NCBI GenBank assembly: GCA_027364735.1
Contig: DAHXOT010000042.1
Span: 1 to 36,010 of the forward strand
DNA from: Hydrotalea sp.
Lineage (GTDB): Bacteria > Bacteroidota > Bacteroidia > Chitinophagales > Chitinophagaceae
DNA: 36,010 bases
Direction: 5' to 3'
In this document: in pieces, positions 23,952-32,526 of the stretch
How positions within the stretch are numbered: position 1 is the stretch's first letter
How the letters are laid out: each line of letters starts with the position of its first letter
Made by a program: the position numbers and the translations under genes
The notes under the pieces: generated by a model
What the model saw: the letters and a program-made list of their open reading frames with translations, nothing else
What the model was told of the DNA's origin: nothing
The model's database searches: none

Positions 23952-25430
23952 ATGAGCAAGGAAATTACATCACGAAGTCAAGATTATTCACAATGGTATA
24001 ACGATATTGTAATAAAAGCCGGATTAGCCGATTATAGTGCTGTTCGCGGTTGTATGGTTATTAAACCCTATGGCTTTGGCTTATGGGAAAATATGCGAGA
24101 TGCTTTAGATAAAATGTTTAAAGAAACCGGTCATGTAAATGCTTATTTCCCATTATTTGTTCCCAAAAGTTTATTTGAGGCCGAAGAAAAAAATGCCGAG
24201 GGCTTTGCAAAAGAATGTGCCGTTGTTACTCATTATCGGTTAAAAGCCGATCCGGATAATAAAGGAAAACTAATTGTTGATGCTGAAGCTAAATTAGAAG
24301 AAGAGTTAATTGTTCGTCCTACAAGCGAGGCAATTATTTGGAATACTTATAGAGATTGGATTCAATCTTATCGCGACCTTCCAATATTGGTAAATCAATG
24401 GGCTAATGTGGTTCGATGGGAAATGAGAACAAGACTTTTTTTACGCACTGCCGAATTTTTATGGCAAGAAGGGCATACTGCACATGCTACCAAAGAAGAG
24501 GCAATTGCTGAAACAAAAAAAATGTTAGAAGTATATGCCGATTTTGTTGAAAATTGGATGGCATTACCGGTAATTAAAGGCATAAAAACACCTAATGAAA
24601 GATTTGCAGGAGCCGAAGATACTTATTGTATTGAAGCCTTAATGCAAGATGGTAAAGCATTACAGGCAGGAACATCGCATTTTCTCGGACAAAATTTTGC
24701 CAAAGCTTTTAATGTTAAGTTTAGTGATAAAGACAATAAATTAGAATATGTTTGGGCAACCAGTTGGGGTGTTAGTACCCGTTTAATTGGTGCATTAGTA
24801 ATGGCTCATAGCGATGATGATGGATTAGTTCTTCCTCCTAAAATTGCACCACTTCAAGTGGTAATTGTGCCTATTTATAAGGGCGAAGAGCAAAAAACAT
24901 TAATTAATGATAAGGTAAAAAATATTGTTTCTGAACTTAAAGCAAATGGTATTTCTGTAAAATATGATGATAGCGATAATGCACGTCCGGGCTGGAAATT
25001 TGCACAATATGAGCTACAAGGTGTTCCGGTTCGTTTGGCCATTGGTGCAAGAGATTTGGAAGCTAATGTTATAGAAGTAGCAAGGCGCGATACTAAAGAA
25101 AAAAAATCGGTTAGTATAGATGGCATTGGTTCTTATATTCAAACACTACTTAACGAAATTCAGCAAAATATTTATAACAGAGCCAAAGCCTTTCAACAGG
25201 CACATATTACAACAGCAAATAATTGGGATGAGTTTATACAAAGTTTAGATGAACATACCGGCTTTGTTTCGGCACATTGGGATGGTACACCCGAAACCGA
25301 AGAGAAAATTAAAGAACTATCAAAAGCAACTATTCGCTGTATTCCATTAGATAATGTACAAGAAGAGGGTAAATGTATTTTAACAGGCAAACCTTCTTCT
25401 CAAAGAGTTTTATTTGCAAGAGCCTATTAA
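23952..25430 (+). CDS. proS: Prolyl-tRNA synthetase (archaeal/eukaryotic-type, no editing insertion)
   Basis: ProS charges tRNA-Pro. This 492-aa class II enzyme is of the ProS type that lacks the INS editing domain found in E. coli. Motif 1 lies around [32 protein letters not shown] (about 37-70), motif 2 around [40 protein letters not shown] (about 119-158) and motif 3 around [25 protein letters not shown] (about 272-297). The anticodon-binding domain starts near 300 ([14 protein letters not shown]), and the C-terminal extension with [13 protein letters not shown] and a terminal Tyr is typical of the group. The start at ATG 23952 fits family N-termini. Confidence 0.96.
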
Positions 25431-25475: not shown

Positions 25476-26063
25476 TTACAAACTGATACCCATTTTTATT
25501 GATAGCCTTTTGAAATAAAAGTTATAATTGTAGTTGGTGGTTTGTTGTAAAATTGGTGGTACTCGAGCATCACCAATAATTTGGGCATAGCTAAACTGCT
25601 TGATACTCCATCCTGCAGAAATAAAAAAATTCGTTGTTTTTGTAATTGATTTATTAATTCCTAATCCGACTTCTTCGTAAATACTGGTTTTAAAAATATA
25701 AGCGTCTTGCCCATTCCAACTCCAATGTTTTGGATAATTGCTATTGTGTAATGTAAAATTCATTCCTGTATTAACATATATAAATGGCCGCCATTCTTTA
25801 TGATTAAGGTATTTTCTAACATCAATAAAAATAGGAATGCTTGGAACTTCATACTGATCGTAAGCTATACCTACACCCACATACCAGTTATTATGCAGTT
25901 CAAATCCATTGCTGGTTTGCAAACTTGTGGAACTTGAATTTTGTCCAATAATTACGCCGGTATTATTAATACTTCTGAACTGATATTTTTTTTTGTTTTG
26001 TTGTGCATTAACTTCTTGAATTAATAGTAACAATAGCCATACATATAGGATACTTTTTTTCAT
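25476..26063 (-). CDS. Small outer-membrane beta-barrel-like protein
   Basis: A 195-aa exported protein with a signal peptide of about 20 residues (ending VNAQ) and then alternating hydrophobic/polar strands: GFELHNNWYVGVGIAYDQY, WRPFIYVNTGMNF, SIYEEVGLGINKSITKTTNFFISAGWSIKQ. It ends in YFKRLSIKMGISL, a plausible last barrel strand. The size would suit an eight-stranded barrel. It is the last gene of the four-gene minus-strand operon headed by the ECF sigma factor and begins 2 bp after the LVIVD lipoprotein gene. Its function is unknown; it may be an output of the sigma factor or part of the sensing complex. It ends 45 bp from the end of convergent proS. Confidence 0.78.
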   Translation of the reverse strand: MKKSILYVWLLLLLIQEVNAQQNKKKYQFRSINNTGVIIGQNSSSTSLQTSNGFELHNNWYVGVGIAYDQYEVPSIPIFIDVRKYLNHKEWRPFIYVNTGMNFTLHNSNYPKHWSWNGQDAYIFKTSIYEEVGLGINKSITKTTNFFISAGWSIKQFSYAQIIGDARVPPILQQTTNYNYNFYFKRLSIKMGISL

Positions 26064-26065
26064 AA

Positions 26066-27340
26066 TTAATTTTTTGGAGTAATGCTTAGTTTGCTAATTA
26101 ACCTAATATTATTTGCGTTTGAATAATTGTATTGGTATAATCCATCGGCAGCGGTAATAATAGCTGTTCCATTTAAACAAATAACATCGAAAGGATTATT
26201 AATAGAAAATGAAGTAATTAATTGCAAATTGGAAACATCGGTAGCATCGTAAAATTTTACAACATCATCACACACTATTAATATTTTTCCATCTTTACCT
26301 AACCCATTGGGTTTACTCATGTTATATGTTTTTACCCAATACGGGTTGGTAACATCGGTAACATTTACAATATCTAATTCATTGTTAACTCCATTGCAAT
26401 AAGTACCACTTCGCAAGGTTATAAAAGCATTAACACCATCTGTAATTACAGGATCGCAAGCTGTTGCGTGTGAAAATGTTTTTATTAATGTTGGATTATC
26501 GGGATTGGCAATATTAAAAATATACATTCCCGAATAAGAGCCTAAAAATAGTTTATCGTTAAAAGGATAAATGGTTTCAGGTGTGCCAATTCCTAAATGT
26601 AAGTTTTGTCTGCTTAGAAATGAGGGAGAAGATGCATCGGTAATATTTAATGCTATTAAATTCTCTGCACTTATAGTATAAAGCCTATTATTAACGATTG
26701 CAATTTTAGACATAGAACCGGCTATGCCAGTAGTTGATGCTGCCGTTGCGGCATATTGCGAGTTGTTAAAATATGCACCACCGGTTGATAAATATATTCC
26801 ACCTGCATTCCAACTAGGAATTGGAGAAGCTGCATCAACTGTTGTATCTCGCTTAATCCAATCTATAATTGTTTTACCGCTATCAACATAATATCCGTTA
26901 ACATATCTTCTATCCGGATAAACATCGGCTGTATAGCTTTTTATAGCAACATTATTTGGATTACTAATATCAATTGCCAACAAATCGGTATAGCAATCGG
27001 CAAATAAAATATTGCTATTAACACCCATATCTTCATTGCCGGGAATTTTAATAAAAGCTTTATTAATTGGGTTAGCAGAATTGCTATTATCAATTATATG
27101 AATGCCTTTTTCTTTTTCTGCTAAAAATATATAATTGCCCTGCACATAAATTTTACCCGGATTTACAATTGGTTGTGCGGCATCGCTTTTAATAGAAGCT
27201 CTTACTTCGGCATTGGTATGTATTACCGGCGTATAAATTGTATAGGTAAGTTTTCCTGAATCTTTAATACAGCTTTTTAATGCAATTAAAATTATTACGG
27301 TTAAAGGAAGCAGTAACAAAAGTTTTATTTTCTTTTTCAT
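26066..27340 (-). CDS. LVIVD-repeat beta-propeller lipoprotein
   Basis: A 424-aa lipoprotein. Its signal peptide has lipobox ending at Cys24, and the mature N-terminus is CIKDSGK. The body is made of repeats of about 40-45 residues with a consensus like 'V.G.Y.F.A....GI.IIDISNP.NP..IK', visible at IYVQGNYIFLAEKEKGIHIIDNSNSANPINKAFI, LFADCYTDLLAIDISNPNNVAIKSY, LYTISAENLIALNITDASSPSFLSR, LFLGSYSGMYIFNIANPDNPTLIKTF and ELDIVNVTDVTNPYWVKTY. This is the LVIVD (beta-propeller) pattern known from Bacteroidota surface and periplasmic proteins. It likely mediates protein contacts. It is third in the sigma-factor operon, 14 bp after the barrel protein. Confidence 0.88.
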   Translation of the reverse strand: MKKKIKLLLLLPLTVIILIALKSCIKDSGKLTYTIYTPVIHTNAEVRASIKSDAAQPIVNPGKIYVQGNYIFLAEKEKGIHIIDNSNSANPINKAFIKIPGNEDMGVNSNILFADCYTDLLAIDISNPNNVAIKSYTADVYPDRRYVNGYYVDSGKTIIDWIKRDTTVDAASPIPSWNAGGIYLSTGGAYFNNSQYAATAASTTGIAGSMSKIAIVNNRLYTISAENLIALNITDASSPSFLSRQNLHLGIGTPETIYPFNDKLFLGSYSGMYIFNIANPDNPTLIKTFSHATACDPVITDGVNAFITLRSGTYCNGVNNELDIVNVTDVTNPYWVKTYNMSKPNGLGKDGKILIVCDDVVKFYDATDVSNLQLITSFSINNPFDVICLNGTAIITAADGLYQYNYSNANNIRLISKLSITPKN

Positions 27341-27354
27341 AAAAATTTATTTAA

Positions 27355-28647
27355 TTATTTTTTTGCTGAATACTTAATTGGAAATTGTATTTGAGCAGAA
27401 AAATATTGTTTAAAATAATTGGTATTATTGAATTGATATAATGGAGTTATTCCTTGTTCAATTTCTATCGTTGCATGAACATTGTTCTTAAATTGTATCC
27501 CTAAACCAAATGTGGTAGTTAACTGAAATTTTTTTATTAATGATGCATTGTAAAAGTATAATTGCCGAGTGTTATCTGCAATTAGCCAATTATTGAATAA
27601 TAAAAATTCTGTGTTAATTCCTGTAAAGAAGTACCAATTTTTATTGTGTATAGCATTAATATAATAGTTAAGTAAGAATGGAATTTTTATGGTGTGAGCA
27701 TAATTAATAACAGTATTATTTTTTCCTGTATTGAAAAAATAATTCGAAGTGCCTAAACTACTATCCACTCTATTTCCTGTGGGTTGGTTATTTTGTTGAT
27801 AGCTATAAGTAGCACCGGTTAAAAAAGACCAATGCCGGTTTATTGTTTGTTCAACTAAAACGCCTGCATCTAAATGAAATCCTTTATTTGGATTACTACT
27901 ATTTGTTGTGGTTTGTGGTGGCGATATTGCCCCAGTTGAGCCTGAATTGTAATTTGAGCCGGCTGCTGAAGAATATCCGGGAAAAATAGTATTTACCGAT
28001 AACAGACCTGCGTTAACAGTCCAAAACCATTTTCTTTTTGCAATAATTTTTTGGGGTATATAACTATTGGATTGAACAGTAGATGAATCTGGATTTTTAA
28101 TTGAAATATTGGATGGAATAAATTTTTTATTGCAATCAATCATCTTTATTTTTTCAGCATCTGCAATAACATTTGGTGTAACCAATTTTTCTTCAATTAC
28201 TTGTCTATTATTGTTTGTAATTGCAACCGACAAATTATCGTCATTGTTGTTGGGAGGAAATATATTTCTTGTTGTAAGAAAATCTTTTTGGGCAACTTTT
28301 TTTCCTGCTGTTTTATTTTCTTTCAATTTTGGTAGTAATGTAGTTTGTTTCTTTTTTTCTATTATTGTTGCATTTTTTTTATTAAATGGTATGGCCAAAT
28401 TTTTATCTCTTTTTTGTAATTGAACTTTTGTAGTGTTGTAGTTTGCTTTGTGTTGTGTTAGTAATATTGTTTGCCAAATAATAAAGCTGCTAATTAAGCC
28501 TATTAAAGAAAACCACCACCAAAAAACACCGCTATCTTTGCGTTGCGGATGTAAAGCTCTTTCAATATCTTCCCAAATTTGCGGTGAAGGTTCAATGCTA
28601 AAATTGCTTAACTTTTTTTCAATATTTTTTTCAAATTCCTTTTGCAT
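27355..28647 (-). CDS. Inner-membrane-anchored protein with C-terminal beta-barrel domain (putative anti-sigma/sensor)
   Basis: A 430-aa protein with three parts. Residues 1-40 are a short cytosolic segment (FSIEPSPQIWEDIERAL) resembling the N-terminus of sigma-operon partners in this phylum. A single hydrophobic helix lies at about 41-63 (VFWWWFSLIGLISSFIIWQTILL) with no cleavage site. Next is a Lys/Asn-rich linker of about 140 residues without recognisable fold. From about 207 the sequence alternates like an outer-membrane barrel of the PorT/OMP_b-brl type (HLDAGVLVEQTINRHWSFLTGATYSYQQ, IKIPFLLNYYINA, KNWYFFTGINTEFLLF, LTTTFGLGIQFKNNVHATIEIEQGI). It overlaps the upstream sigma gene by 17 bp, implying translational coupling and an anti-sigma role, which is inference. 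Confidence 0.8.
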   Translation of the reverse strand: MQKEFEKNIEKKLSNFSIEPSPQIWEDIERALHPQRKDSGVFWWWFSLIGLISSFIIWQTILLTQHKANYNTTKVQLQKRDKNLAIPFNKKNATIIEKKKQTTLLPKLKENKTAGKKVAQKDFLTTRNIFPPNNNDDNLSVAITNNNRQVIEEKLVTPNVIADAEKIKMIDCNKKFIPSNISIKNPDSSTVQSNSYIPQKIIAKRKWFWTVNAGLLSVNTIFPGYSSAAGSNYNSGSTGAISPPQTTTNSSNPNKGFHLDAGVLVEQTINRHWSFLTGATYSYQQNNQPTGNRVDSSLGTSNYFFNTGKNNTVINYAHTIKIPFLLNYYINAIHNKNWYFFTGINTEFLLFNNWLIADNTRQLYFYNASLIKKFQLTTTFGLGIQFKNNVHATIEIEQGITPLYQFNNTNYFKQYFSAQIQFPIKYSAKK

Positions 28648-29191
28648 TATTTTTTATATTGAGTACTTCATTATTTTTTAAATCTTGAATTAACATTGCT
28701 CTTGCTCTGCTGTATTGACTGCGAATTGTGTTAATATTTTGTTTTAGTAAATCGCATACTTCGTTGTATTTATATCCTTCTATTGCAATAAGGTTAAAAA
28801 CAATTTGATAGTTGCCGGGCAATTGCCGAATAGTTTCTATAATATCTTGTACTTCTAATTTTATTTCAGGATTATCCTCACTTACCGCATGAAGTAAAAC
28901 ATCATCATTTATCATTTCCTTTTTATATCTTTTATGTTTGTTGATATAAGTTATTGCTGTATTAATCATTATTCTTCTTATCCAACCGCCTAATTCTCCT
29001 TCGTTTTTATATTGATGGATATTGGTAAATACTTTTATAAATCCTTCTTGCAAAACATCTTCGGCATCTTCTAAACTTTTGGTATAGCGATAGCATAGCC
29101 CCAGCATTTGTGCAGCATATTGCTGATACAATAAATACTGAGCATCTTTTTTTCTTGCAATACATTTCTTAATTAAATCTTCTTTGTTCAT
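28631..29191 (-). CDS. RNA polymerase ECF-type sigma-70 factor
   Basis: A 186-aa alternative sigma factor. Region 2 spans about residues 20-90, with RYTKSLEDAEDVLQEGFIKVF (core binding) and GWIRRIMINTAITYINKHKR (-10 recognition). Region 4 spans about 117-170, with ETIRQLPGNYQIVFNLIAIEGYKYNEVCDLLKQNINTIRSQYSRAR, the helix-turn-helix for -35 recognition. It has no region 1 or 3, as usual for ECF factors. It is the promoter-proximal gene of the operon with the membrane-anchored barrel protein, the LVIVD lipoprotein and the small barrel protein, so envelope stress or cell-surface sensing is the likely signal. Autoregulation is likely but no self-recognition motif is identified. Confidence 0.94.
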   Translation of the reverse strand: MNKEDLIKKCIARKKDAQYLLYQQYAAQMLGLCYRYTKSLEDAEDVLQEGFIKVFTNIHQYKNEGELGGWIRRIMINTAITYINKHKRYKKEMINDDVLLHAVSEDNPEIKLEVQDIIETIRQLPGNYQIVFNLIAIEGYKYNEVCDLLKQNINTIRSQYSRARAMLIQDLKNNEVLNIKNNAKGI

Positions 29192-29327
29192 TGGCTATGC
29201 TCTATTACAATGACTAAGCTATTACGGTTTTCATTGCAAATGGCAACAAAAGTTGATAAAATAGTTTGACAGAATATTTTCTGAAATTTCTTTGAAGAAG
29301 AATATTGATAGGTTTTAGAATGGACAA

Positions 29328-29357
29328 TTGCTCATTTCCATCTTTCCTATACTTTTG
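29328..29357 (+). promoter_or_regulatory. Bacteroidota-type promoter of truB
   Basis: TTG at 29328-29330, a 19-bp spacer and TACTTTTG at 29350-29357 match the -33/-7 consensus. The element ends 4 nt before the ATG at 29362, which both supports that start and predicts a leaderless mRNA. Confidence 0.7.
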
Positions 29358-29361
29358 CCGA

Positions 29362-30057
29362 ATGCAACCAATAACTTCTTTTTTAGAGGGAAAAGTATTA
29401 GTGTTTGATAAGCCATTACGATGGACTTCCTTCGATTTGGTAAAAAAAGTGCGAATACTTACTAAAGTGTCTAAAGTTGGTCATGCAGGAACTTTAGATC
29501 CGTTGGCCACAGGTATTTTAATAGTTTGCACTGGTAAGTACACTAAAAAAATTAATGAATACATGGGAATGGAAAAAGAATATACCGGAACTTTTACCAT
29601 TGGCTCTACAACGCCTACCTACGATTTAGAAAGTGAACCTATTAATTTTACCGATATAGGCTCTATTACCGAAGAACAAATTTATGCTGCAACAAAAAAA
29701 TTTATAGGTAATATTTGGCAAGTACCGCCTCAGCATTCTGCTATAAAAAAGGATGGAAAGCCTTTATACTTATCGGCCAGAAAAGGAATTGAAATAAAAG
29801 TTGACCCAAGACCTGTAACTATTAAAAGTTTTGAAATTACAGCAATTGATTTGCCAATTATTCATTTTAAAGTTGTTTGCTCAACGGGAACGTATATAAG
29901 AAGTTTGGCCCATGATTTTGGAAACGAATTACAGGTTGGTGCATATTTAAGTAGCTTATGTAGAACAAGAATTGGTAACTTTTCTATTAAAGATGCAATA
30001 AGTATTGATGGATTTGAAAATGAAATTAAACAAATGCGATTATTGTTAAACGAATAA
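29362..30057 (+). CDS. truB: tRNA pseudouridine(55) synthase TruB
   Basis: TruB converts U55 in the T-loop of tRNAs to pseudouridine. The 231-aa protein opens with the family segment FLEGKVLVFDKPLRWTSFDLVKKVR, followed by VGHAGTLDPLATGIL with catalytic Asp46. The YTGTFTIGSTTPTYDLESEP strand, PPQHSAIKKDGKPLY, and CSTGTYIRSLAHDFG segments follow. It lacks the C-terminal PUA domain, as short versions in this phylum do. I choose ATG 29362 rather than an in-frame TTG at 29305, because the promoter's -7 box lies between the two and the longer form only adds Cys/Phe-rich residues. It is convergent with tamL, 54 bp between stops. Confidence 0.95.
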   Translation: MQPITSFLEGKVLVFDKPLRWTSFDLVKKVRILTKVSKVGHAGTLDPLATGILIVCTGKYTKKINEYMGMEKEYTGTFTIGSTTPTYDLESEPINFTDIGSITEEQIYAATKKFIGNIWQVPPQHSAIKKDGKPLYLSARKGIEIKVDPRPVTIKSFEITAIDLPIIHFKVVCSTGTYIRSLAHDFGNELQVGAYLSSLCRTRIGNFSIKDAISIDGFENEIKQMRLLLNE

Positions 30058-30111: not shown

Positions 30112-32526
30112 TTAAAAAGGTAAATTAATACCAAACTGAAAAGCCCAATTATTTACTTCTACACCATTAAATCTTTTTTCTACCCATTTTAAATTTCTTA
30201 AATCGGCCCAACCATCATTATATTGCCGGGCAGGGTCTTTTAATTTATAGCCAAAATCAAATCGTAATAAAAAATAAGATAAATCAAATCTTAAACCTGT
30301 GCCAACGCCAATAGCTAAATCTTTTCCTAATCTTGATAAATCGAAAGAAGCATTTGGATTAGTAGGGTCTGCTTGAATATTCCATATATTACCCATGTCG
30401 GCAAATAAAGCACTACCAATTTTTACAGAACTAAAATTCCAGATTATAAAACGGTACTCTATGTTAGCTTCTAATGCCATATCTCCAAAGCGATCGGTGT
30501 AGCCGGTAGGGTTAATTGTATCGCTGGCAACAGAAGATACTAAACCTAATTGACGAAGATTCCATGCTCGCATACTATTGGGGCCGCCTAAAAAATATTG
30601 TTTAAATGCCGGAATAGATTTGCCTGAAGTGGGTATGCCGGCACCGGCAAAAAATCTTGCAGCAAGTTCACTTTTTTTCTGTTTATGTGAAAAAATAAAC
30701 TCCGATTCGAATTTGGCATAATCGAATATTTGATCGTTTATTTTGCTGAAAAGCGATAATAATAGCCCCGATTCTTCGGCATAAAAGCGAACACTATAAC
30801 TATTATTCATATTTTTTTTACCTACAAAAACTCTGGAAAGTTGAATATTGCTTCCTACAACATTTCCATTTCTGATAGAGTTTCGTAAAAACGGATAACT
30901 AACAAATGCATTAATTAATCCGGTTAAAGTATCTACTTTGTATAATTCAATATTGAGTGGTTTATAGGTCCATGCCCATCCCGCAGTGTTTTTGCTCCAT
31001 TCATATCCCCAACTACCTACAAATGACCTTAATCGATAATAATCTTTCCTGTCGTAATAAGTACCACTTACCGAAAATAAAGTTCTTTTATTATTCAGGT
31101 TATTTAAGTAACTCCAGTTTTTAAATGGCTGAATAAGTTTTGGAAAAATATAGGTATGTGATAGGGTAACCTGAAAACTTTGCAATAATGAGTTAGTAAT
31201 TGTATCGGTATTAGAAATAAAGCTAAGTTCGGTTCCTATACGTAAATTGGTAACAGATTGAATAGCTTGTTTCCAAACATTTCTATTTCTATAAGTGAAA
31301 TTAGTAGAGATACCAAATAAGCTTCCGGCCGTAAAATCTCCGGTATTTCTGCTTCCCTCTAAATCAACTGAAAAATTTTGTTTAATAGCAGGTACCAAAA
31401 AGTAATAAAGGTTTAGTGAATCTTTATTAGTAGGAATAATACGAGCATCGGTTTGTTGCCATGCTCCAATTCGGCTAAGCGTATTTAATGTTTTATAAAA
31501 ATCTGTTTCATTATATAAATTGCCATTATGTAAATAAGTATATTCTTTTAGTGGACGCGATACAAATTTTCCTTCTTTGTATCGCATAATCAAATTTTTA
31601 TTTTTTTCCTCTTTAAAATTCGATTGTGTAATTAAGCTATCGGGTATATCGGATAATTTTGTTTCGGGGTAGAAATAAGTTTTTGCAACAAAGTATTGAT
31701 TAAGTTTAGACGAATCTTTAAACGGTTTTTGTTTAATAACAATATCCCATTTTGGGTTTTCTCTTTTGTTTTTTGCTGCTTCTGCAATTAATTTATTTAG
31801 TTCAATAGGGTCGAGTGTAAGCGGTAATAATTGTGTATCGGTTGTATCGGTTAAGGCAAATAAGTCATCCCTCGAAAATTTATAATATCCCTTATCTCTA
31901 TATAAATTGGTTAATCTGTCTAATTCATTACTAATATTTTGTTTACTAAAAACAGTACCTTTTTTTAATAAGCTTTTGGTTTTATTGTAATCGGCAATTT
32001 TTTGCATGCTAGAATCTAATAGGATATAAGCAGTAGAATCGATAGTTACATTTTTGCCGGGTTGTATATTCATTAAAACTGTTGCTCTTATTTGATCGGG
32101 AATTATTTTCGATGGATGAAATATTTTATTCCATAATCCTAAATGCCCAATTATTGTATCAAATTTTGGAACAGAGTCTTTGATTATGGCATAATAATAA
32201 CCTTGAGAATTAAGGTAGCCCGACATTAATTTCTTAGTACGAATAATATTTCTTTCCTCAAATGTTGGCGGATTTTTAATTACATAAAAGAACCATAATT
32301 TTTGTAGTTTGGGTATTTTTAAACTATCATCCCAATAATTTTCTAAATCGGCTGTTAAGCGTTTTTTCTCATCTTTGATAAGATTACCGTTTACAGTAAT
32401 TTCGGTGTTATAAATAAAAGGTTTATTAATGGGGGCTTTTTTAACGGTGGTACACGAAATAAAAAAAATTATCGTTGCAAAAGCCGATATAAAAAATTTA
32501 ATGAATGTTTTTCTGGTACAATACAT
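30112..32526 (-). CDS. tamL: TamL: BamA/TamA-family outer-membrane lipoprotein
   Basis: An 804-aa outer-membrane protein. The signal peptide carries lipobox FIS|C (Cys25), so the mature protein is lipidated, the feature that distinguishes Bacteroidota TamL from TamA. POTRA-like segments occupy about residues 35-400 (ITVNGNLIKDEKKRL, ISNELDRLTNLYRDKGYYKFS, FYKTLNTLSRIGAWQQTDARI). The Omp85 barrel starts near 415 (FSVDLEGSRNTGDFTAGSLFGISTNFTYRNRNVW). KQYFLGGPNSMRAWNLRQLG near 660 corresponds to the conserved loop-6 VRGY/F-like region, and the last strand ends WAFQFGINLPF. With TamB it would assist envelope assembly. Its ATG is only 5 bp from that of the divergent methyltransferase gene. Confidence 0.88.
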   Translation of the reverse strand: MYCTRKTFIKFFISAFATIIFFISCTTVKKAPINKPFIYNTEITVNGNLIKDEKKRLTADLENYWDDSLKIPKLQKLWFFYVIKNPPTFEERNIIRTKKLMSGYLNSQGYYYAIIKDSVPKFDTIIGHLGLWNKIFHPSKIIPDQIRATVLMNIQPGKNVTIDSTAYILLDSSMQKIADYNKTKSLLKKGTVFSKQNISNELDRLTNLYRDKGYYKFSRDDLFALTDTTDTQLLPLTLDPIELNKLIAEAAKNKRENPKWDIVIKQKPFKDSSKLNQYFVAKTYFYPETKLSDIPDSLITQSNFKEEKNKNLIMRYKEGKFVSRPLKEYTYLHNGNLYNETDFYKTLNTLSRIGAWQQTDARIIPTNKDSLNLYYFLVPAIKQNFSVDLEGSRNTGDFTAGSLFGISTNFTYRNRNVWKQAIQSVTNLRIGTELSFISNTDTITNSLLQSFQVTLSHTYIFPKLIQPFKNWSYLNNLNNKRTLFSVSGTYYDRKDYYRLRSFVGSWGYEWSKNTAGWAWTYKPLNIELYKVDTLTGLINAFVSYPFLRNSIRNGNVVGSNIQLSRVFVGKKNMNNSYSVRFYAEESGLLLSLFSKINDQIFDYAKFESEFIFSHKQKKSELAARFFAGAGIPTSGKSIPAFKQYFLGGPNSMRAWNLRQLGLVSSVASDTINPTGYTDRFGDMALEANIEYRFIIWNFSSVKIGSALFADMGNIWNIQADPTNPNASFDLSRLGKDLAIGVGTGLRFDLSYFLLRFDFGYKLKDPARQYNDGWADLRNLKWVEKRFNGVEVNNWAFQFGINLPF

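Follow-up and report, generated by a model that had tools for sequence, protein, structure and literature searches.

The 36,010-base stretch of Hydrotalea DNA analysed here (the window, on contig C32 of a 2.77-Mb genome) carries at 25476-29191, on the minus strand, a four-gene operon that we consider quite likely to encode a Chitinophagaceae system of the Dma/Das type, in which an extracytoplasmic function (ECF) sigma factor would be held by a dual-membrane anti-sigma factor and freed, on disturbance, to transcribe the operon. This reading draws on gene order, protein architecture, a promoter motif, copies of that motif at LVIVD genes away from the operon and, in relatives, a bias of motif sites towards lipoprotein genes, all obtained from sequence and structure models. 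The envelope-spanning anti-sigma idea put forward in the initial annotation of this DNA finds good support in the model and in published relatives and is probably right, and it is not new, such proteins having already been described in gut Bacteroidales (PMC9308784, PMC13088901). What is added here is the LVIVD/small-barrel output, the promoter motif and a likely regulon in relatives.

In the mechanism that we infer, residues 1-38 of the second protein would hold the sigma factor in the cytosol, residues 39-65 would cross the inner membrane, a disordered tether would cross the periplasm and an eight-stranded barrel would insert in the outer membrane. A disturbed outer membrane or barrel would lead to release of the sigma factor, perhaps by proteolysis, and the freed sigma factor would transcribe its own operon from TGCAATG-N17-GTCA, raising the levels of a propeller lipoprotein and a small barrel that in all likelihood would work jointly at the outer membrane. 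The features are as follows.

29211-29238, minus strand: predicted ECF promoter (motif; site read directly)
28631-29191, minus strand: ECF sigma factor (Das-like), 186 amino acids (PF04542, 6e-17; PF08281, 4e-10; its relatives adjoin a Dma-like gene in the operon loci)
27355-28647, minus strand: Dma-like second protein, 430 amino acids (open reading frame (ORF) call; OMP_b-brl_2, PF13568)
28534-28647, minus strand: its residues 1-38, cytosolic segment of two helices, presumed to bind sigma (model, conserved residues)
28453-28533, minus strand: its residues 39-65, predicted single transmembrane helix (AlphaFold2 helix, charge pattern, hydropathy)
28030-28452, minus strand: its residues 66-206, predicted disordered periplasmic tether (pLDDT, tether lengths in orthologues)
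27379-28029, minus strand: its residues 207-423, predicted eight-stranded outer-membrane barrel (PF13568, AlphaFold2, PDB matches)
26066-27340, minus strand: LVIVD beta-propeller lipoprotein, 424 amino acids, lipobox Cys24 followed by I-K-D (PF08309, model)
25476-26063, minus strand: probable small secreted outer-membrane barrel, 195 amino acids (two family members match OMP_b-brl)

Architecture of the Dma-like protein

The ORF calls agree exactly with the four minus-strand genes first annotated: the sigma gene and the gene for the 430-residue protein overlap by 17 bp, and gaps of 14 bp and then 2 bp follow. The proposed ECF identity of the first product was confirmed by Pfam sigma regions 2 and 4 (PF04542, PF08281), and among the 25 NCBIfam families listed for it the general sigma70-ECF model was the sole one above cut-off. 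The Pfam scan of the four operon proteins found neither a FecR-type anti-sigma domain nor a TonB-dependent receptor domain, in line with the earlier suggestion that the operon does without a FecR/TonB relay.

Judging by its model and by analogy, the second protein is probably an anti-sigma factor spanning the inner membrane, the periplasm and the outer membrane. In Pfam, OMP_b-brl_2 (PF13568) spans residues 230-404 at 1e-14, above the cut-off. AlphaFold2, run on a 45-row alignment, gave a mean predicted local distance difference test score (pLDDT) of 69.8 and a predicted template modelling score (pTM) of 0.53, with helices at 2-15 and 22-32 and a long one at 39-65, a disordered stretch at 66-206 (pLDDT mostly below 50) and eight long strands between 207 and 423; ten-residue blocks of 261-420 averaged 82-98, the first strand scored about 72-82 and residues 221-255 were poorly modelled. 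The best PDB matches of the model in Foldseek were OmpA, PagL, LpxR and OmpX, with OmpW just above an expectation value (E) of 0.001. Structure prediction therefore bore out the barrel-like domain first placed at residues 207-430, as an eight-stranded barrel with OmpA- and PagL-like matches, and a soluble periplasmic sandwich in its place is ruled out by the Pfam domain, the modelled barrel and the Foldseek matches.

Over the 45 orthologues, the columns of residues 33-42 hold 251 lysines and arginines against 34 aspartates and glutamates, and because this positive excess lies just before the membrane helix the N-terminus is probably inside. A simple hydropathy measure calls a transmembrane segment in 39 of the 45, so that charge pattern, modelled helix and hydropathy all support the cytosolic segment and single transmembrane helix originally proposed. 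The linker of about 140 residues reappeared as the disordered residues 66-206, the tether being 141-299 residues long in the 45 orthologues (median 178) and free of cysteine.

One could suppose that the second protein is no anti-sigma factor at all and that its barrel gene just shares a transcript with the sigma gene. We regard this as very improbable, since genetics in two other genera shows proteins of this layout to act as anti-sigma factors, and since the N-terminus is conserved, with P20 and W25 present in every row of the 45-row alignment and F5 in nearly all, and has relatives encoded next to further sigma genes in this genome. There are four sigma/barrel pairs in this genome, and a profile of the N-terminus finds two further barrel-bearing proteins beside other sigma genes, L043 (3e-6) and L041 (6e-4); the fourth barrel-bearing protein, L045, was not recovered by this profile. 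The profile also finds, at E 0.0018, a 247-residue membrane protein with a Dma-like N-terminus and no barrel, encoded directly after a sigma gene (L046, 4995-6285). From these sequences, the presumed sigma-binding end may have been swapped between barrel and non-barrel anti-sigma factors.

Conservation of the four-gene order

The 430-residue protein was matched in 10 of the 59 genomes first searched (its own included), and a Dma-like profile matches 50 of 198 genomes in a phylum survey that covered Bacteroidota genomes only, 48 of the 50 belonging to the window's class. A profile of the LVIVD lipoprotein matches 159 of 294 family genomes and 69 of 101 genera. We chose 60 LVIVD loci by hand, about one per genus and mostly full-length and best-scoring. 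A Dma-like gene lies directly upstream of the LVIVD gene in 40 of the 60, preceded by a sigma gene in 39 and at a contig edge in the other, and a small barrel gene lies directly downstream in 50. Among the best 80 of at least 546 confirmed loci in a scan of named genomes, 43 have all four genes in order. The survey of genome neighbourhoods suggested by the initial annotation thus found the order sigma, Dma-like, LVIVD, small barrel to recur across many genera of Chitinophagaceae, and because the same order appears in so many genera the arrangement is not due to chance.

The proteins themselves differ in how far they have diverged. Identity to the window's Dma-like protein is 14-27% in 43 of the 44 other alignment rows and 82% in the same genus, against 42-47% for LVIVD proteins outside the genus, 29-32% for small barrels and 44-56% for operon sigma factors. 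At one locus (L260), two consecutive Dma-like ORFs precede the LVIVD gene, representing either tandem copies or a frame break.

Around the operon, by reading, a truB-like gene lies at 29305-30057 on the plus strand, from which the operon points away, and the operon stops 45 bp short of a prolyl-tRNA synthetase-like gene (23952-25430) whose 3' end converges on it. The window also encodes, at 30112-32526, an 804-residue probable outer-membrane protein with a lipobox-like start, which seems to resemble the TamL-type lipoproteins described for Bacteroidota.

A conserved promoter motif and its probable reader

Upstream of the window's sigma gene lies a predicted promoter with the -35 element TGCAATG (29232-29238), a 17-nucleotide spacer and the -10 element GTCA (29211-29214), which ends 19 nucleotides before the start codon; the other genome of this genus has the same site. 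The pattern TGCAAYG-N16..18-GTCA occurs upstream of 42 of 48 sigma genes (39 regions taken from the 60 loci, plus those of the window and of 8 earlier relatives) against a mean of 0.01 in letter-shuffled sequence, a count that is descriptive only because these regions also served to define the motif. It is also found upstream of the LVIVD gene in 16 of 40 operons (shuffle mean 0.01), and in its relaxed form it is absent upstream of six paralogous sigma genes.

The residues of region 4.2 just before R/K-S-Q-Y, in the recognition helix, are expected to face the -35 element, and we compared them in 85 distinct sigma factors. All 69 sigma factors whose site has C in the -35 element (C type) carry T-S (68) or T-C (1) before R/K-S-Q-Y, and 11 with T (T type) and the same motif carry T-I, T-L or T-V. 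In three further T-type sigma factors another residue replaces the Q, preceded by C, I and V, and two sigma factors have no site. The T type, to which the window belongs, falls in one clade of the tree (100/99). On these sequences, the joint change of -35 base and helix is consistent with this sigma factor probably reading the promoter directly.

Candidate targets in relatives and in this genome

Of the 19 LVIVD genes that lack an adjoining Dma gene, 8 are likewise preceded by the motif (shuffle mean 0.005; the split gene L140 left out). We counted a Dma match as strong at E below 1e-40 or, for G083, by its sigma neighbour, which applied to 12 of the 19 tested genomes; among these 12, 8 have the motif at the unlinked LVIVD gene, and none of the remaining 7 genomes does (p 0.013). 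In a strict C-type form, TGCAACG-N15-TTGTCA, the motif has 140 sites in 117 family genomes against 14 for the reversed pattern. Of the 61 genomes that have a Dma match reaching at least 150 bits, 47 contain it, and of the remaining 56, 9 do (p 2e-11). The strict sites number 129 in the first group and 11 in the second; the reversed pattern, with genome size uncorrected as in the former count, gives 11 and 3, and therefore the excess is not explained by such background.

From the 140 strict sites we chose 40 by hand that lie away from known operons and added one site of the window's own genome. Of these 41, seven precede further sigma genes and one (L209) an LVIVD gene. With the own-genome site set aside, 32 sites remain, at 23 of which the first downstream gene has a lipobox and at one of which no gene was called. 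The background was 25 of 332 ORFs (p 3e-16), with the reservation that the lipobox rule is simple and approximate and misses some lipoproteins and that the background ORFs are naive calls. Eighteen of the 23 lipobox genes encode proteins of 112-163 amino acids, seven of which were scanned in Pfam with no match above cut-off; L194, also among the 23, is an LVIVD relative of half length. Taken together, one ECF sigma factor reading TGCAAC/TG-N16..18-GTCA might drive both the LVIVD/small-barrel pair and a variable complement of small lipoproteins, whereby a disturbed outer membrane would be recoated with lipoproteins, a scenario that we regard as tentative and would place a little below an even chance.

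Several observations weigh against the operon-centred system or this wider extension of it. The thresholds for calling a Dma orthologue were set after the scores had been seen. In the contrast between 8 of 12 and 0 of 7 unlinked LVIVD genes, G083 was counted as positive for its sigma neighbour, and the seven genomes still hold weaker Dma-like matches, as do all 20 genomes; in the 12 genomes with a strong match, 4 unlinked LVIVD genes have no motif. Likewise, the strict C-type motif is missing from 14 of the 61 orthologue-bearing genomes and present in 9 of the 56 that have no orthologue, and 20 of the 60 LVIVD loci have no adjoining Dma gene. The lipoprotein bias comes from strict C-type sites in relatives, and the window belongs to the T type; the genome it comes from holds 4 relaxed motif sites, hardly more than the 2 of the reversed control. 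As for the recognition helix, the T-type sigma factor L098, one of those with an altered motif, has the C also seen once among the C type, and the co-change of base and helix amounts to one observation because it is a single event on the tree.

The own-genome site (C7:2395; locus L174, 2395-4502) is a copy of the strict promoter 27 nucleotides before a gene for a DUF5050/PD40 propeller lipoprotein, after which two ORFs at the contig end together make up a subtilase-like region. We do not claim it as a regulon member: the site is of the C type, the window's sigma factor is of the T type, and the counts are near those of the control. Since the operon site alone is trustworthy in this genome, the operon itself is the likely output in this organism.

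The propeller lipoprotein and the probable small barrel

The third gene was first annotated as encoding an LVIVD-propeller lipoprotein, and this is supported by one LVIVD repeat match in Pfam (PF08309, 6e-8, above cut-off) and by a predicted all-beta propeller fold (pLDDT 78.7). Its PDB matches include the eight-bladed BamB and designed propellers, with listed template modelling scores (TM-scores) of at most 0.66, from which we infer a propeller with eight blades. A BamB-like role was considered and dropped, since unrelated propellers rank high alongside the BamB entries. Bacteroidetes surface lipoproteins carry an export signal (PMC5080379), for which the C-x-K-D pattern here would be a candidate. 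In the lipoprotein, C24, K26 and D27 are invariant across 8 aligned relatives. In a wider set of 125 LVIVD relatives, 123 have a readable site; K is the +3 residue in 116 of these and D the +4 residue in 111, in a search that started from a K/D pattern of this kind.

The small barrel claimed for the fourth gene held at the level of the family, 2 of 5 scanned members (the window's protein not among them) matching OMP_b-brl with a best value of 4.5e-4, and not for the window's own protein, which has no Pfam match above cut-off. By reading, it has a signal peptide at about residues 1-20. The C-terminal residue is F in 28 of 51 relatives; in 12 it is L, which the window's protein also has. The small barrel might be a copy of the anti-sigma barrel, but compared as profiles the two share only a partial match of 70 columns (probability 66%). 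Three profiles searched against the sequences of solved structures gave weak matches only.

A paralogous LVIVD propeller is seemingly split into two adjacent genes at three loci, L194 (G114:C9), L214 (G104) and L140 (G030); the halves at L194 are 194 and 248 amino acids long, both with a lipobox (by rule or by reading), and the ECF motif lies just upstream of the split genes at L194 and L214. Thirteen lower-scoring LVIVD matches read through one to three stop codons. At L261, L272 and L281 the LVIVD gene stands beside an oppositely oriented small-barrel gene, and at L261 and L281 it is followed by a sigma gene, the same components in another arrangement.

The two proteins had been called partners or outputs. 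Because they share promoters with the sigma gene they look like outputs, which sharpens the second of these options, and the sequences are best explained if the sigma factor drives both. They might instead be parts of the sensor, feedback inhibitors that hold the anti-sigma barrel, as the tight gene order in 40 of the 60 loci would allow. We think this unlikely, since a third of the LVIVD loci (20 of 60) have no Dma neighbour, 7 of the 19 tested genomes have only weaker Dma matches in the paralogue range, and the LVIVD gene carries its own promoter copy in 16 of 40 operons. The occurrence of the LVIVD/small-barrel pair away from a Dma neighbour or a strong Dma match suggests that it has a role of its own.

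Candidate triggers of sigma release

Within the proposed system, the disturbance could act through the assembly of the barrel. The barrel would then be a client of outer-membrane assembly, and its failed insertion, caused by failing barrel assembly or lipoprotein traffic, would lead to degradation of the protein and free the sigma factor with no surface ligand involved. We see this as a serious candidate, if one that falls somewhat short of being probable. The anti-sigma factor diverges faster than its operon neighbours, which suggests that there is no single conserved ligand, and this divergence can be read either way and does not separate assembly sensing from ligand sensing. In P. vulgatus, according to PMC9308784, a BamA inhibitor likewise induces many of the other genes that are induced by the toxin acting on a Dma-type pair. 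The BamB entries among the propeller matches add a likeness at the level of the fold only, and those matches are generic.

The barrel loops could, on the other hand, bind a glycan, a toxin, a neighbouring protein or the LVIVD/small-barrel pair itself and pass the change down the tether, which we regard as possible and rather doubtful. High divergence would fit changing ligands, and the authors of PMC13088901 hypothesize that Dma2 senses a glycan. A disordered tether of 141-299 residues would transmit a conformational change poorly, however, and therefore a further step, through proteolysis or tension, would still be required.

Dma-type anti-sigma factors have been studied in gut Bacteroidales. 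The system described here offers a conserved promoter motif, a conserved two-gene output and dozens of orthologues, some of them in cultured isolates such as Niastella yeongjuensis DSM 17621, which has the full operon, so that Dma sensing and its direct targets could be addressed with a promoter reporter.

Comparison with known systems

In FecI/FecR-TonB signalling an ECF sigma factor is controlled from the outer membrane, with anti-sigma factor and receptor as separate proteins. The window differs in that its four proteins have no FecR or TonB-dependent receptor domain. The LVIVD lipoprotein resembles the LVIVD-repeat cell-surface proteins, which have repeats of 42 residues (PMC2447325); the window's protein differs in being a lipoprotein that is followed by a small barrel and stands under an ECF-type promoter. 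We found no earlier account of the LVIVD pair, the promoter or the lipoprotein bias in the open-licence papers searched, and a prior report is possible.

The Phocaeicola vulgatus pair M0N98_03761/03760 is close in layout: its anti-sigma factor is predicted to bridge the periplasm and to carry an outer-membrane barrel, and genetics showed that it restrains its sigma factor (PMC9308784). There, the sigma gene is induced by a toxin, probably through envelope stress, and three NigD genes (putative lipoproteins) rise under the same treatment. The regulon confers toxin protection and a longer O-antigen, and the accessible text mentions no LVIVD pair.

The Dma family is defined by an N-terminal anti-sigma domain, a transmembrane helix, a long disordered tether and a C-terminal barrel, encoded beside an ECF21 sigma factor (PMC13088901, which credits PMC9308784 for the family), and is described for Bacteroidota only. 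The window's protein has a conserved N-terminal segment of two predicted helices that may bind sigma, the predicted transmembrane helix, disordered tether and barrel as well as an ECF sigma neighbour, the latter found both in the window, by the 17-bp overlap, and in 39 of the 40 Dma-LVIVD loci. In this four-part layout it resembles Dma1/Das1 and Dma2/Das2 of Bacteroides thetaiotaomicron, where removal of the anti-sigma factor Dma2 strongly induces its own operon (PMC13088901). The effects reported in B. thetaiotaomicron concern vesicles and polysaccharide-use loci, and the words 'LVIVD' and 'motif' are absent from that text. In the Dma2 operon and its upregulated neighbours the genes encode DUF4943, DUF4858 and an enzyme-like protein, whereas in the window they encode an LVIVD propeller and a small barrel.

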